Shown in pieces: positions 10,794 through 31,749 of a stretch of 46,694 bases of DNA; within the stretch, counting starts at the first letter, position 1; every line of letters begins with the position of its first letter. The DNA is from Opitutales bacterium. GTDB lineage: Bacteria; Verrucomicrobiota; Verrucomicrobiia; Opitutales; Seribacteraceae. The position numbers were made by a program, and so were the translations under genes. The notes beneath the pieces were generated by a model. It did not search any database, had not been told where the DNA came from, and saw only the letters and a program-made list of their open reading frames with translations. The stretch covers positions 1-46,694 of the forward strand of contig JAQWWZ010000046.1 in the NCBI GenBank assembly GCA_029254745.1. Reading direction: 5' to 3'.

Positions 10794-11870
10794 TTAATAA
10801 ACTCCTTCTACGATATTTTTTTGCATTGCACCAAATGGTCGGACTTCCGCAACTCCATCCCAAGGTGCTTCAGTCCAAGGTCTGCGGCGCAGTGCCTCGT
10901 CCCGCTCCAAAAAACGAGGCATAAAAAATTCTTTGGTCAGGGTGGAAAGTTCTACCCTGCCCCAAGTATCATAGGCCACAGGTTGATTGTTTTCTGTATT
11001 AATGACACGAAGGACAGCTCTTGGTTGGGGGGCATAATAGGCAATTGAATAATCATTTTCCCGAGAAATGGGATGATGCCTTGCGAGTCCCATCAAGGTA
11101 TTTCCATAAGTTGGAACGAAACCAATTTTACCTCCCTCGCAAACCTCTTCTACAAGAAATCGGGCGTATTGCTTATCCATGGTTGTACCCCCACAAAATA
11201 CTCCCTTTATTCCAGCCCGTACTAAATCTTTTCTCTCGGCTAAAGCTTCCAATAATTTCGGTGTTGTAAACAAGGCACTAACTTCACGGTTTTTGAGGAT
11301 TGTTAAGGCTTGGTCTACGACATGATCCATGTAGGCACGAGCTTGATCAAATTGCTTGTTAGCAATCAATCGCTTCACCCAACGGGGATCAAGGTCTACA
11401 AAATAGCAGGAGCACCCACGCTGGTTTGCCAAATGTTCAATGGCTAATCGTAAACGCCTTGGACCTGTTGGCCCCACCATCATCCAATAGTGATCTTTTG
11501 GAAAATGCTCATCATTGAGGGTTTCTGAAAAGGCAGTGTAATCGATCCTGAAATCGTCCCACCCAATTCGCTGTTTCGGCATTCCTGTCGTGCCACCCGT
11601 CTCAAATATATTGAAGGGGCGATCTTTGTAAGCTTGGGGAACCCAAACTTTATTGGGTAAGTCACGCAACCATTCATCCTGGAAGTTGGGAAATTTATTA
11701 CATATATCTTCAAAGGTTTTAATTTCCTTTAGTGGATCCCATGATTGATCTTTTGCCCAATTAAGCCAGAACGGCGAACCAGTTTCATCGGAAAAATGCC
11801 ACTTTATGATTTCAGCAACATGGGTGTCTAAGTCTTTTGCTGCTTGTAGAATTTTATTTTCAATGGCCAT
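10794..11870 (-). CDS. LuxE/PaaK-like acyl-adenylating enzyme (ANL superfamily)
   Basis: 358 residues, close to LuxE length and shorter than phenylacetate-CoA ligase (about 430). The ATP-binding P-loop is ETGGTTGMPKQ at 90-100, followed by FCGGTTMDKQ and VPTYGNTLMGLA, which match the PaaK/LuxE adenylate-forming core. The C-terminal lid domain appears truncated. It should activate a carboxylic acid as acyl-AMP and pass it to CoA, a protein thiol, or directly to the reductase encoded two bases downstream. A 62-base gap with an 11-bp dyad precedes it, so expression may be adjusted separately from the symporter. Substrate unknown; an aryl acid is suggested by the chorismate-lyase-like gene. Confidence 0.8.
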   Translation of the reverse strand: MAIENKILQAAKDLDTHVAEIIKWHFSDETGSPFWLNWAKDQSWDPLKEIKTFEDICNKFPNFQDEWLRDLPNKVWVPQAYKDRPFNIFETGGTTGMPKQRIGWDDFRIDYTAFSETLNDEHFPKDHYWMMVGPTGPRRLRLAIEHLANQRGCSCYFVDLDPRWVKRLIANKQFDQARAYMDHVVDQALTILKNREVSALFTTPKLLEALAERKDLVRAGIKGVFCGGTTMDKQYARFLVEEVCEGGKIGFVPTYGNTLMGLARHHPISRENDYSIAYYAPQPRAVLRVINTENNQPVAYDTWGRVELSTLTKEFFMPRFLERDEALRRRPWTEAPWDGVAEVRPFGAMQKNIVEGVY

Positions 11871-26078: not shown

Positions 26079-27005
26079 ATGGAAAACATTATTATTCTAG
26101 GCACTGGATGTGCGGGTTTTACTGCTGGTATTTATACCGCAAGAGCAAACCTAAACCCACTAATTCTTGAAGGCAAACAACCCGGAGGACAGCTTACAAC
26201 CACATCAGAGGTTGAAAATTTTCCCGGCTTCCCTGAAGGGGTGGATGGGTTCTCACTCATGGATCAATTAAGAAAGCAGGCGGTTAAATTCGGTGCTCGG
26301 GTTGAAAATGCTTTCATCGACCGAGTCGACTTTAGCGGGCAAACAAAACTTCTTTTTTCTGGAGATAAGAAAATTGAGGCAAAGGCGGTGATTATCGCAA
26401 CCGGTGCTGCCCCCCGTTTACTTGGTATTCCCGGAGAGCAAGAAATGTACGGAGGGAAAGGGGTAACGACTTGTGCGACCTGCGATGGTGCGTTTTACCG
26501 CGATATGGATGTGGTTGTAGTTGGCGGCGGGGATTCAGCTTGCGAGGAAGCCCTTTTTCTTACTCGATTTTGCAAAAAAGTTACCTTAGTTCATAGAAGA
26601 GACGAACTCCGAGCATCCCGTATTATGGCAGAGCGTACTGAAGCTCATGAAAAAATTGAATTACTTTGGGATTCGGGAGTAGAAGAAATTTTAGCAGATG
26701 AGGATGGAAAAGCCCGAGCCATTAAAGTTAAAAACCTAAAAACAAATGAAGAAAGTGAAATTTCCTGTAAAGGGGTATTTATTGCCATTGGCCACATTCC
26801 GAATACTAGCCCTTTTCAAGGTATACTCGAACTTGATGAAAACGGCTATCTAGTACCCCAAGGGAAGAGTATGGTAAAAACTGCACTAGATGGTGTTTAT
26901 GTGGCTGGTGATTGCGCTGACCATGTATACCGTCAAGCTATTACAGCAGCAGGCATGGGTTGCCAGGCTGCTATCGAAGCCGAACGCTGGCTGGCTGAAG
27001 GATAA
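26079..27005 (+). CDS. trxB: Thioredoxin reductase
   Basis: 308 residues, full length. The FAD-binding motif appears as [16 protein letters not shown] (8-23), the redox pair is C132-A-T-C135 in TCATCDGAF, the NADPH motif is [10 protein letters not shown], and the C-terminal FAD motif is [10 protein letters not shown]. It reduces thioredoxin with NADPH in the cytoplasm. The usual GSGPAG is replaced by GTGCAG, which adds a cysteine inside the first motif. It is followed after nine bases by oleC, so the two may share a transcript. Confidence 0.95.
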
Positions 27006-27014
27006 GACTTAGGC

Positions 27015-28670
27015 ATGCCAGATCGCTTTGCTTGTAAAAACCTTGTTTCCCACCTTGCGGAAACTGCTAAGCGTTCTCCTCATCAAACTGCCATATTTTC
27101 CGCTTCCAAAAACAACTTTACTAAACGAAATTTTAAAGAACTCAGTGAAGATGTAGCTCGATGTGCGACCTACTTACAAACAAAAGGCCTCACCAAAGGG
27201 CAGAAAGCCCTGCTTTTTGTAAAGCCTGGCTATGAGCTCACAGTTCTTGCATTCTCTGTCATTTATCTTGGCGTAATTCCTGTTATTATTGACCCAGGCA
27301 TGGGGTTTCGTTCCGTTTTATCCTGTATTCGTTCGACCAAGCCAGATATTTTGATCGGATTGCCGCTTGTAATGTGGTTGAGCTTTGTTTTTAGAAATTC
27401 ATTCAAGGCTGTCCACACCAAGATTCAAATAAGTAAAAATTTTCTCAACAAGCATATTTTATCGGCATCCTCTAGACCCTATTGGCCTCAAGCAAGTACA
27501 ACAGAAGAAGAGCTTGCTGCGATTGTTTTCACTTCAGGCTCAACCGGTGCCCCCAAAGGAGTAAAATACCTTCACAAAAACTTTAACTCTCAAGTCGACT
27601 CTCTTCAGGGTAATTTTGATATTGCTCATGGTGAAATTGATCTTGCCACACTCCCTATTTTTTCCCTCTTTAATCCCGCTTTGGGGGTAACCACGATTGT
27701 TCCAGAAATGAATCCGCGTAAACCAGCATCTGCAGATGCTAGAAGTTTGGTCGAATCCATCAAAAGCCATGGAATCACCACCGCTTTCGCATCTCCTGTT
27801 ATTGGAAAGAAAATTGCTGATTATTGTATCAAGCACGATCAGATACTACCCTCTCTTCAAAGAATTTTTCTTGCTGGAGCTCCCTCCCCTCCTGGCTTGA
27901 TTGAAGATCTTAGTAAGATCCTGGTACATGGAGAAGTCATTGTTCCATATGGAGCTACAGAAGCCCTCCCTGTTTCATTTGCAACCGCCAAACAGATTAT
28001 TCAGAGCCAAAAAAGTATTCTTGCGGGTGAAGGGTCTTATTTGGGAAATCCGGCTCCCGGAGTGTCAGTTAAAATTTTCCCTTCTTTGGCTCCTGCTTTA
28101 TCCGCTAAATTAGGCGAACATGGAGAGCTTACTCGTGGACAAATTGGAGAGATTTGCGTTGCAGGAGATATTGTTACAGATGGTTATTATAGAATGCCAG
28201 GAGCATCTATCGACGCGAGATTTTCCTATGAAAACAAAACTTTTCACAGAATGGGCGATCTTGGATACTTTGATCAGGATCATTGCCTACGTTTTTTGGG
28301 TCGAAAGGCTGAATGTATTCAAACAGAAAATGGCCTTCTTGAAACCGAACGGTGCGAACCAATGATCAATGCCATCCCCTGTATAAAAAAATCGGCTTTA
28401 ATTGGAATTGGAAACGCAAAGAAACAAGAACCATGTATTGTGGTCGAACCGCTACGGGCAGATTTTACCGAAAAGAAAAAAAGAGAAGTAAGTCAAAAGA
28501 TTTTATCTATTCTTACCACTTCTTTTCCCCAATTTAATTTCATGAGAGTTTTCTGGGAACCATCCATTCCAGTTGATGCAAGACATAATGCAAAGATTCA
28601 CCGCCTTTCTCTTTCCAAAAAATGGACCCGAATCGTTCAAGGTCAAAGTAAGGCCGGAATATTTTCATGA
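27015..28670 (+). CDS. oleC: OleC-like beta-lactone synthetase (ANL superfamily)
   Basis: 551 residues. The adenylate-forming P-loop is FTSGSTGAPKG at 172-182. The family-specific stretches LATLPIFSLFNPALGVTTIVPEM and LAGAPSPPGLIEDLSKIL, with PYGATEALPVS, match OleC proteins of long-chain olefin biosynthesis. OleC converts syn- or anti-2-alkyl-3-hydroxyalkanoate with ATP into a beta-lactone; OleB then decarboxylates it to an alkene. It overlaps oleD by four bases. The thiolase OleA and hydrolase OleB are absent from this window. Confidence 0.88.
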   Translation: MPDRFACKNLVSHLAETAKRSPHQTAIFSASKNNFTKRNFKELSEDVARCATYLQTKGLTKGQKALLFVKPGYELTVLAFSVIYLGVIPVIIDPGMGFRSVLSCIRSTKPDILIGLPLVMWLSFVFRNSFKAVHTKIQISKNFLNKHILSASSRPYWPQASTTEEELAAIVFTSGSTGAPKGVKYLHKNFNSQVDSLQGNFDIAHGEIDLATLPIFSLFNPALGVTTIVPEMNPRKPASADARSLVESIKSHGITTAFASPVIGKKIADYCIKHDQILPSLQRIFLAGAPSPPGLIEDLSKILVHGEVIVPYGATEALPVSFATAKQIIQSQKSILAGEGSYLGNPAPGVSVKIFPSLAPALSAKLGEHGELTRGQIGEICVAGDIVTDGYYRMPGASIDARFSYENKTFHRMGDLGYFDQDHCLRFLGRKAECIQTENGLLETERCEPMINAIPCIKKSALIGIGNAKKQEPCIVVEPLRADFTEKKKREVSQKILSILTTSFPQFNFMRVFWEPSIPVDARHNAKIHRLSLSKKWTRIVQGQSKAGIFS

Positions 28671-29671
28671 AGATTGTTATTACTGGAGGACTTGGTTTTG
28701 TCGGTAACCAAGTGGCTAGACATCTTGCAAAAGCTTTCCCTCACGCTGCTATCACCGCGATTGGCAGAACTATTTCTCCCCTTGATTCGAAAATATTTCA
28801 GGACTTAGAATATTTATCCTCGGATCTAACCAAGGGGCGTGATTCTTTTTCATGGTTAAAAGGGGTAGATTGCGTCTTCCATGTAGCAGCTAAAGCTGGA
28901 ATTGGAGGAAAGTTTGATGACTACAATCTGGCAAACTTTGAAGCTACCCGTGATTTACTAGATGCCTCCAAGAAATTTGGCGTTAAGCAGTTCATCTACA
29001 CCAGCACTCCCAGCGTAGTCTTTAATACTCAAAATATTCAAAATGGGGACGAGTCTTTACCATATCTTAACTCCCCAGTCTCTCCTTATGCCTTTACTAA
29101 AGCCAAAGCAGAGAAAATCGTATTAGAAGCTCACAGCCCAAAGAAATTTCAGACTATCTCCCTCCGTCCCCATTTAGTTTGGGGAAAAGATGACCCTCAT
29201 CTCCTTCCCCGCATTCTTGCTAAACATCGCCAAAAGAAACTTAGAATTATTGGTGATGGGCAGAATATGATGGATGTTACGCATGTGTCGAATGTGGCCC
29301 ATGCCCATATCTGTGCCTTTCAGGCGATGTTACAAAATCAAGATTTTGGTGGAAAAGCCTACTTTATTGGTCAAAACGAACCCGTACAAATCTGGTCTTG
29401 GTTGAACGAAATCTTCAAAAACCTCCAACTCCCCAATCTCACCCAAAAAATTTCTTTTCGGAATGCCCACTCGATTGGTTTTGTTATGGAAAAAATTTGG
29501 GGATTAGCCCAATTGACCACCGATCCTCCTATGACCCGTTTCGTGGCATCCCAGCTTGCTCATGACCATTGGTTTTCAAACAAAGCAGCTGAACAAGACA
29601 TCGGCTACTATCCTATAATTTGCATGCAAGAAGCCATGGATAAAACATTACCCTGGTTGCGCACCCTCTAA
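28667..29671 (+). CDS. oleD: OleD-like 2-alkyl-3-oxoalkanoate reductase (SDR)
   Basis: 334 residues of the extended short-chain dehydrogenase family. The Rossmann motif GGLGFVG is at 7-13, YTSTPSVVFN at 111-120 and the catalytic YxxxK at Y141-K145. RPHLVWGKDDPHLLPRI and IGDGQNMMDVTHVSNVAHAH fit the 3-beta-HSD/OleD branch. It reduces the beta-keto acid made by OleA to the hydroxy acid used by OleC, with NADPH. It is translationally coupled to oleC. It ends in a four-base overlap with the convergent methyltransferase gene. Confidence 0.88.
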   Translation: MKIVITGGLGFVGNQVARHLAKAFPHAAITAIGRTISPLDSKIFQDLEYLSSDLTKGRDSFSWLKGVDCVFHVAAKAGIGGKFDDYNLANFEATRDLLDASKKFGVKQFIYTSTPSVVFNTQNIQNGDESLPYLNSPVSPYAFTKAKAEKIVLEAHSPKKFQTISLRPHLVWGKDDPHLLPRILAKHRQKKLRIIGDGQNMMDVTHVSNVAHAHICAFQAMLQNQDFGGKAYFIGQNEPVQIWSWLNEIFKNLQLPNLTQKISFRNAHSIGFVMEKIWGLAQLTTDPPMTRFVASQLAHDHWFSNKAAEQDIGYYPIICMQEAMDKTLPWLRTL

Positions 29672-30480
29672 AGCTTTCCAACGCTTCGGTTGTAATCGCT
29701 CAATATACAACCTACACTTACATTCAAGTTTAACGAACTTGCATCCCCGAACATCTTAAGAGAAACCCAGTGGTCTACTTTTTGCTTCCAATAATCTCCA
29801 AGACCGTTGTGTTCGTTTCCAAAAATTATGGCCACATTTTGATCGTAAGTAAAACTATGTGAAAATTCTGGTGCTTTGGAGCTTGTGGCAACACAAGGTA
29901 AACCTTGCTTCTGCAACCAGTTATAAATTTCTTCTTTGCTGCCAGACCTTACATTTACTTTCCCAGTAAGACCTCGAGAAGAGCGAATAACATTTGGATT
30001 AAAGAAATCGACTTTGGGCTCAGAAAGAAGAATCAAGCCTCCTCCGAGTGCCTCGCTTGTACGCAGGATAGCACCGAGGTTTCCCGGCTTTTCTATTTCG
30101 TCGAAAATAAGAACTGGTGCATCGATTTTGTTCACCTTTGTATTTGGAATACTCAGATCCCATGCCCTGACCACTCCAAGAACACCATCCGAGGTTTTTC
30201 TGTAAGAAGCTTTAAGTAATGCTTCTTTACCAAGTTCCCGTAAGCTAAGAGACGGATTTTCTTGCCAATGCAAAAAATATTGGGATGCCGATGAGGTAGA
30301 AACCAAATCCTCATTGAAATAAATTTCTAGTACTTCCCGGTTACCATCGATCAATGTCTGTAAATCCTGAGCTCCCTCCACCACAAAGCATTGCCGTTCA
30401 CGCCTCCGTCGTGGAGATTCACGAAGCTTAACCAATTCTTTGACGGTTGTATTCGTCGGACTTTGAATTATGTCTGTCAC
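29668..30480 (-). CDS. TrmH/SpoU-family RNA 2'-O-methyltransferase
   Basis: 270 residues from a GTG at 30480. An earlier GTG or ATG at 30588 or 30585 would add 35-36 atypical residues and overlap the divergent gene's start. The N-terminal substrate-binding domain includes RRRRERQCFVVEGAQDL. The SPOUT knot motifs are LIFDEIEKPGNLGAILRTSEALGG, VAIIFGNEHNGL and the C-terminal SLNLNVSVGCIL. These methylate a ribose in rRNA or tRNA using SAM; the exact target is uncertain. No Shine-Dalgarno sequence is clear, so the start is moderately sure. Confidence 0.85.
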   Translation of the reverse strand: MTDIIQSPTNTTVKELVKLRESPRRRRERQCFVVEGAQDLQTLIDGNREVLEIYFNEDLVSTSSASQYFLHWQENPSLSLRELGKEALLKASYRKTSDGVLGVVRAWDLSIPNTKVNKIDAPVLIFDEIEKPGNLGAILRTSEALGGGLILLSEPKVDFFNPNVIRSSRGLTGKVNVRSGSKEEIYNWLQKQGLPCVATSSKAPEFSHSFTYDQNVAIIFGNEHNGLGDYWKQKVDHWVSLKMFGDASSLNLNVSVGCILSDYNRSVGKL

Positions 30481-30534
30481 AATTTTATAAAAAGGGTTTT
30501 GCCAGAAAAGGGCGAGCTCGTTACGAACAATTCG

Positions 30535-31749
30535 ATGACAAAACAGGAGCCAAAAGGTTTTACCCCTCACCCATACCCTTATCATCACGAATTAGAACTA
30601 CGCATTGAAAGCATAACTAATCTAGGCTTGGGGATAGCACGGGATAATGGGTGGGTCGTTCAAGTACCCTTTGTAATCCCTGGAGAATTGATTTTGGCTA
30701 GAATTTACCGAAACCACAAAAATTATTCAGATGCTGATTGTATACAAATTCTGACTCCATCCCCAGACCGTATTGAAGCAAAGTGCGACCTCTTTGGTAC
30801 CTGTGGTGGGTGTCAATATCAGTCGGTTGCCTATGAAAAACAATTGGAATGGAAGGCAGCCCAAGTCAAAGAATGCTTTGAAAAAATAGGGGGACTTGAG
30901 CTTCAAGTGCAACCGGTTATTCCTTCCCCAAAAACTTATGGCTATCGCTCGAAATTAACTCCTCATTATGAAAAAAATCGAGAAGGTATTTTACGAAAGC
31001 TCGGTTTCTTAAAGTATGGCTCTAGAAGGATACTCGTCGATGTTCCTCATTGCCCTATAGCAACCAGTGCCATTGATCATGCTCTTCCATCAGCAAGAGA
31101 GGAACTTTTTGAAAAAGCCAAGAAAAATAAAGGAGGTACCCTTCTCCTCAGAGATACCCAAGAAGGGGTGATTACTGACCCAAATCAGCTTGCTACCGAA
31201 AGAGTGAAAGATTTAGTCTTTCAATTTAAGGCAGGAGAATTTTTTCAAAATAACCCTTTTATTCTGCCCCAACTCGTAGATTATGTAATTGAGCAGGCCA
31301 GTCCAAACACTTCAAAAACATTAGTTGATGCATACTGTGGAGGTGGCTTATTTAGCCTATCTGCATCCAAAAAGTTTCAGAAGGTTGCTGGAATTGAAAT
31401 TAGCCGTGAAGGATTTGAAGGTGCCCGGACTAATGCTTTGCTTAATCAAATTGAAAATGCTGCATTTTATCTGGGAGATGCCTGTTCTATCTTCTCTGAA
31501 TTACAAGACTTACCCAAACCATTCTCCCTCATTGTCGATCCACCTAGAAAAGGGTGTGACGCAAACTTCATTGAGCAAACCTTGGAGTTTCGTCCCGATA
31601 AGATTGTTTATGTCTCCTGTGATCCATCTACCCAAGCGAGGGATACTAAGCTGCTTACTGCAGGTGGATACAAGGTATTGGCAGTTCAGCCTTTTGATTT
31701 ATTTCCCCAGACAAGGCATATTGAAAATGTCTTAACCCTAGGAATCTAA
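30535..31749 (+). CDS. TrmA/RlmD-family RNA (uracil-5-)-methyltransferase
   Basis: 404 residues from ATG at 30535, which places a TRAM-like RNA-binding domain (about 18-73) at the N-terminus; a frame from 30391 would run into the divergent gene. A [4Fe-4S] set is visible at C84, C90, C93 and C173 (CX5CX2C plus a later Cys). SAM-binding VDAYCGGGLFS, catalytic VSCDPSTQARD (nucleophilic Cys) and VDPPRKG are intact. It makes 5-methyluridine in 23S rRNA or tRNA. The RlmD-like cluster suggests 23S rRNA. Confidence 0.9.
   Translation: MTKQEPKGFTPHPYPYHHELELRIESITNLGLGIARDNGWVVQVPFVIPGELILARIYRNHKNYSDADCIQILTPSPDRIEAKCDLFGTCGGCQYQSVAYEKQLEWKAAQVKECFEKIGGLELQVQPVIPSPKTYGYRSKLTPHYEKNREGILRKLGFLKYGSRRILVDVPHCPIATSAIDHALPSAREELFEKAKKNKGGTLLLRDTQEGVITDPNQLATERVKDLVFQFKAGEFFQNNPFILPQLVDYVIEQASPNTSKTLVDAYCGGGLFSLSASKKFQKVAGIEISREGFEGARTNALLNQIENAAFYLGDACSIFSELQDLPKPFSLIVDPPRKGCDANFIEQTLEFRPDKIVYVSCDPSTQARDTKLLTAGGYKVLAVQPFDLFPQTRHIENVLTLGI

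Follow-up and report, generated by a model that had tools for sequence, protein, structure and literature searches.

The window analysed here, a stretch of 46,694 nucleotides from an Opitutales bacterium (contig JAQWWZ010000046.1 of assembly GCA_029254745.1), carries an oleC-oleD pair, and an oleA-oleB pair is found elsewhere in this genome, on contig C58. We conclude, with a probability of roughly 0.9, that each pair supplies one half of a single, complete OleABCD pathway, and that the cell most likely uses this known route to produce a long-chain internal alkene.

The window encodes OleC and OleD behind trxB

The pair and its neighbours are arranged as follows:

26079-27005, + strand: trxB, thioredoxin reductase, outside the alkene pathway (TIGR01292, 378 bits, cut-off 343)
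27015-28670, + strand: oleC, olefin beta-lactone synthetase of the AMP-binding/ANL superfamily, 551 aa (NF006754)
28667-29671, + strand: oleD, 2-alkyl-3-oxoalkanoate reductase, an SDR protein, 334 aa (OleD models)
29668-30588, - strand: SpoU-type RNA 2'-O-methyltransferase, a convergent neighbour outside the pathway (PF00588, 105 bits, above cut-off)
30391-31749, + strand: 23S rRNA (uracil) methyltransferase, which we take from a reading of the open frame to be of the RlmD type, a mere neighbour (open reading frame list)

OleC matched the NCBIfam model NF006754 with 491 bits, above the cut-off of 478, which was exceeded in 0 of 14 control genomes. The next-best matches were the olefin beta-lactone synthetase models of Xanthomonas (378 bits) and Shewanella (360 bits), whose strict equivalog cut-offs of 900 and 850 bits, specific to these clades, OleC fails; the best match outside these three models reached 156 bits. 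The two OleD models gave OleD 280 and 276 bits; both scores fall short of the strict NCBIfam cut-off of 580, and the next family, HpnA, followed with 102 bits. Moreover, an OleD profile built for this analysis gave 538 bits for OleD versus 17 bits for the other SDR protein in the window.

In the OleC tree, a branch with support 91/81, found in 89% of bootstrap trees, sets off 29 ole rows. The window's OleC groups with the OleC proteins of the order and with that of L182, a contig on which the ole genes are contiguous, and this group excludes 10 OleC-like ligases found in other orders as well as two paralogues from the window's genome, both on long branches. Similarly, in the OleD tree the window's OleD lies inside the OleD group (91/95), separate from 12 other SDR proteins, in a tree with long outgroup branches and a bootstrap that had not settled. 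Both trees rule out a position of the two proteins outside the OleC and OleD clades and, together with the family models, uphold the original prediction that the two reading frames are OleC and OleD.

The OleC-like ligases, L205-L215, score below the OleC cut-off and form a group of their own, with 10 of the 11 placed in the tree; L214, the match of which was in two pieces, was omitted. Their hosts are G172, G208, G240, G177, G314, G226, G179, G241, G299, G151 and G236. In the two loci inspected, L207 and L212, the ligase gene lies behind genes for a DUF3419 protein, a protein without a Pfam match and an acetyltransferase-like protein, the last having a Pfam match in L212 only. These ligases may be part of another lipid pathway.

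The four-base overlap and the place behind trxB are also as originally described: the stop of oleC and the start of oleD overlap as ATGA at 28667-28670, and 9 bases separate the end of trxB from the ATG of oleC. The position behind trxB is the ordinary placement for this group, trxB being upstream of oleC in 28 of 28 loci of the family with room upstream. We consider that trxB is probably co-transcribed with oleCD. Predictions of promoters and terminators around oleCD were uninformative, with 10 and 4 sites versus shuffle means of 8.4 and 4.9. From its sequence, the window's OleC is predicted to make a beta-lactone from a beta-hydroxy acid with ATP.

Three details concern other parts of the window. 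The SpoU-type methyltransferase reached 94 bits with the RlmB model, below its cut-off of 160. The TTG start listed for the RlmD-type frame overlaps the preceding gene, and the true start is probably further downstream. Finally, part of an AMP-binding domain was found at 10965-11312 on the - strand in an open frame of 360 aa (21 bits, 30 with neighbours).

oleA and oleB are on contig C58

Neither oleA nor oleB adjoins oleCD, as had been noted originally with the proposal that the two genes are elsewhere or that another source of hydroxy acids feeds beta-lactone formation by the pair. Genome-wide searches of the assembly (72 contigs, 96.5% complete, 0.42% contamination) located both genes on C58, a contig of 22 kb. 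A search with the C-terminal domain of ketoacyl synthase III found two places, a FabH-like protein on C65 and, on C58, the sole OleA-type thiolase; in a search for alpha/beta hydrolases, the top match was on C58 directly behind this thiolase. The first proposal is thereby confirmed, and orphan oleCD genes are ruled out for this genome.

The C58 thiolase scored 384 bits (cut-off 285) with NF006720, which we take to be the OleA family. Its best PDB matches (183 bits) were 3row and kin, titled 3-oxoacyl-ACP synthase III in the PDB and presumably the X. campestris OleA structures. The OleA signature published as EPxx[AS]x(14,18)DxxNACL (accessible part of PMC7158056) was present in 130 of 130 OleA loci checked, including that on C58.

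The oleB gene starts right behind oleA and encodes an alpha/beta hydrolase resembling haloalkane dehalogenases. Haloalkane dehalogenase models were its best family matches, below cut-off, and no OleB-specific curated model was among the family matches. The hydrolase is predicted to decarboxylate the cis-beta-lactone.

On C58, genes for a CrtI-like FAD oxidoreductase, fabZ (dehydratase), fabI (enoyl reductase), oleA and oleB follow one another in this order on the same strand, and the first 4 bases of oleA are also the last of fabI. FabI was its own sole match in the genome at 1e-8, and no FabK-type second enoyl reductase scored over the cut-off in this genome (best 27 bits versus 453). The CrtI-like gene, at L047:8318-9772 (G000:C58), lies ahead of fabZ-fabI-oleAB. 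Where members of the order have this gene, its products share approximately 60% identity; the top NCBIfam matches were carotenoid desaturase and isomerase models, far below cut-off.

Separate oleAB and oleCD loci are the rule in the Opitutales

In a sample of 42 genomes of the family, the present one included, a close OleC (at least 41% identity) was found in 41, with pieces only in G003, G026 and G037, and no close OleC in G034. A close OleA (at least 60% identity) was found in 33 of the 42 genomes, and in 0 of these 33 were OleA and OleC on one contig. We fetched 30 OleC loci (of 41 genomes) and 30 OleA loci (of 33). Among loci with room, i.e. those not truncated too early by the end of a contig, oleD was behind oleC in 29 of 29, oleB was behind oleA in 28 of 28, and fabI was within 200 bases upstream of oleA in 29 of 29. 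The repeats L121 (the oleA of L113), L049 (the oleA of L047) and L017 (the oleC of the window) were removed from the counts; in the layout counts, L049 represents the oleA and L017 the oleC of the present genome.

Among 20 OleC and 20 OleA neighbourhoods fetched from the order and class, neither oleA nor oleB was found in any of the 20 OleC loci. oleB was behind oleA in 18/20, fabI was within 200 bases upstream of oleA in 15/20, and oleD was at most 1 kb from oleC in 13/20. Genome-wide searches located the missing OleD elsewhere in G122, G249, G173, G191, G168 and G177, and the missing OleB at another place in G191 and G168; in G191, the four ole genes are on four contigs. Thus, the pathway has been retained even where its genes have become scattered. 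In the 15 genomes of the class sample (286 genomes, see below) in which oleA and oleC share a contig, the distance between the two genes ranges from 56 kb to 3.3 Mb. In the order Opitutales, the split between oleAB and oleCD is the rule.

A scan of named genomes with a single OleA protein gave no match; with alignment A1 of 11 OleA proteins, we considered the best 80 of 580 confirmed stretches. Most of these 80 are titled Opitutaceae, Opitutales, Opitutia, Opitutae or Puniceicoccaceae, and they include Cephaloticoccus primus CAG34 and Verrucomicrobiae bacterium DG1235; a few are titled otherwise (Verrucomicrobia without order, Akkermansia, Planctomycetota, Nitrospinota, Nitrospinaceae). Among those of the best 80 with room, oleB was behind oleA in 77/78 (the exception is L193), fabI within 200 bases upstream in 64/74, fabZ within 1.2 kb in 61/72 and a CrtI-like gene within 3.6 kb in 40/60. 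Two of the 80, L203 (a bin titled Nitrospinaceae) and L189 (Nitrospinota), hold oleA-oleB pairs, and no oleC or oleD was found in the stretches fetched.

The two halves of the pathway are joined on L182, a contig of 6.3 kb from a bin titled Planctomycetota (nwagbin3), on which fabZ-fabI-oleA-oleB-oleC-oleD form one run on one strand (L182:98-6103). Identity between the encoded proteins and their counterparts in the window's genome is 39-61%. Because L182 is one short contig of one bin, its host is uncertain.

These layouts bear on the possibility that all four genes are present and the product is a beta-lactone or a ketone, the C58 hydrolase being a dehalogenase or another esterase rather than OleB. 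The family matches of the hydrolase, with haloalkane dehalogenase models as the best and no OleB-specific model, would agree with this possibility. However, the hydrolase gene is behind oleA in nearly all loci, in L182 a hydrolase 44% identical to that of C58 is encoded between oleA and oleC, and OleB is described as having features in common with haloalkane dehalogenases (a title cited in PMC6463001). We therefore regard this alternative as very unlikely and retain the assignment of the hydrolase as OleB.

OleA and OleC occur together

A class sample of 286 genomes comprised 52 genomes of the Opitutales, including the present one, and 234 others. OleC and OleA each scored over the cut-off in 52 of the 286 genomes; both were present in 51, OleC alone in 1, OleA alone in 1 and neither in 233. 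Within the order, 49 of the 52 genomes have both, G144 has OleC alone, G186 has OleA alone and G322 has neither; outside the order, G177 and G285 have both and the rest of the 234 have neither. Because the co-occurrence is concentrated in one order, these counts are not independent events, and Fisher's p of 2.6e-54, which ignores kinship, was given no weight.

G144, a genome of 1.7 Mb that is 99% complete, has retained oleC-oleD and fabZ-fabI (L096, G144:C4:307000-321000; L119, G144:C2:146000-162000), and genome-wide searches of it yielded neither an OleA above the cut-off nor any match to OleB. Behind fabI, in the place expected for oleA, is a gene that by eye resembles cysC. G144 is a real candidate for oleCD without oleAB.

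In the family, no close OleA was found in nine of the 42 genomes (G004, G012, G014, G019, G023, G026, G030, G034 and G038), of which eight are 51-84% complete and G038 is 92% complete. G038 is the nearest relative by OleC (87% identical), and no close OleA, OleB, ole-type FabI or ole-type FabZ was matched in it. For G038 and the other genomes of this set, fragmented assembly is the easy reading, and real loss is possible.

The physical separation of oleCD from oleAB, together with G144 and with G038, which likewise shows oleCD only, would be consistent with the second proposal of the original prediction, i.e. an oleCD pair that is independent of OleA and OleB and turns another hydroxy acid into beta-lactones. 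This proposal is contradicted by the presence of oleA and oleB in the window's own genome, by the agreement between OleA and OleC presence over the cut-off in 284 of the 286 genomes, and by L182, which links all four ole genes. Because the genome encodes both the condensing enzyme and the decarboxylase, and OleA tracks OleC across the class, another hydroxy acid source is unsupported and need not be assumed, and we judge the proposal highly improbable.

That C58 is contamination foreign to the organism, as its short length and the 72 contigs of a metagenome-like assembly might suggest, is hardly credible and unsupported given the contamination of 0.42%, the same fabZ-fabI-oleAB operon in G017 of the same genus (OleA 75% identical), the close OleA in 33 of 42 family genomes and the single-contig genomes of the order that hold both halves.

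Proposed pathway

In the published route, two acyl chains are joined by OleA to a beta-keto acid, which is the substrate of the reductase OleD; OleC then forms the beta-lactone ring, from which OleB releases CO2 (PMC7158056 and PMC6463001, accessible parts). By analogy, the C58 OleA would condense two fatty acyl chains head to head to a beta-keto acid, which OleD from the window would reduce; OleC would then close the beta-lactone, and OleB would remove CO2, leaving a cis-alkene with a long chain and an internal double bond, presumably located in the membrane. OleB, OleC and OleD, encoded at two loci, would join in one assembly. What counts against this reading is that OleC and OleD are below the strict NCBIfam cut-offs set on Xanthomonas and Shewanella, that OleB matched no curated model of its own, and that G038 and G144 show oleCD without oleAB.

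The genes are probably transcribed as two separate transcripts, trxB-oleC-oleD and fabZ-fabI-oleA-oleB, and the latter operon would tie the condensing step to fatty-acid synthesis. OleA formed its product in an E. coli fadD mutant, i.e. without acyl-CoA synthetase activity (accessible part of PMC6463001), which fits an acyl supply from fatty-acid synthesis, and we infer that OleA uses acyl-ACP directly.

It is conceivable, albeit rather unlikely as a whole, that the alkene pathway of the Opitutales is hard-wired to fatty-acid synthesis. In this joint reading, oleA and oleB would be co-transcribed with fabZ and fabI; this fabI may encode the only enoyl-ACP reductase of the cell; OleA would take its acyl chains directly from acyl-ACP, alkene being made in step with membrane lipid synthesis; the CrtI-like oxidoreductase would modify the acyl chain or the alkene; and the OleBCD assembly would form from proteins of two unlinked operons.

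Comparison with known systems

Lineages such as this one can be undercounted or misinterpreted, and their oleCD labelled a beta-lactone cluster, in surveys that look for the four genes side by side. Moreover, the layout connects type II fatty-acid synthesis with hydrocarbon formation in a way that can be tested, in an order that has cultured members.

The four enzyme families found here are those of the OleABCD pathway of Xanthomonas campestris, Shewanella and Micrococcus luteus. Unlike in those organisms, oleAB and oleCD are unlinked and oleAB lies behind fabZ-fabI; the genes do not form the usual cluster of four in one neighbourhood, the two pairs being on different contigs. The accessible part of PMC7064751 lists three contexts, i.e. 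oleABCD with 0-3 genes in between, oleBC fusions, and oleACD without oleB, and the split is not among them; nor did we meet a description of it in the partly accessible literature returned by searches on ole genes, and an earlier description is possible. Verrucomicrobia are already known to have ole genes (PMC7158056, PMC5673642), and an oleABCD operon of Opitutae genomes is mentioned in PMC5673642, as far as the accessible parts of these papers go.

The oleACD beta-lactone clusters of the lipstatin type in Actinobacteria share OleA, OleC and OleD with the present system (PMC7064751, in part). They lack oleB, whereas here oleB adjoins oleA, and we therefore predict an alkene as the end product instead of a beta-lactone. 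In the pfa-linked ole operons of marine gammaproteobacteria (PMC6463001, in part), the ole genes are likewise tied to a source of acyl chains; there the partner is a polyunsaturated fatty-acid synthase, whereas here the partners are fabZ and fabI, genes of the ordinary type II pathway of fatty-acid synthesis. The chemistry is known, and the possible novelty, a modestly interesting link, is the conserved two-operon layout tied to fabZ-fabI.
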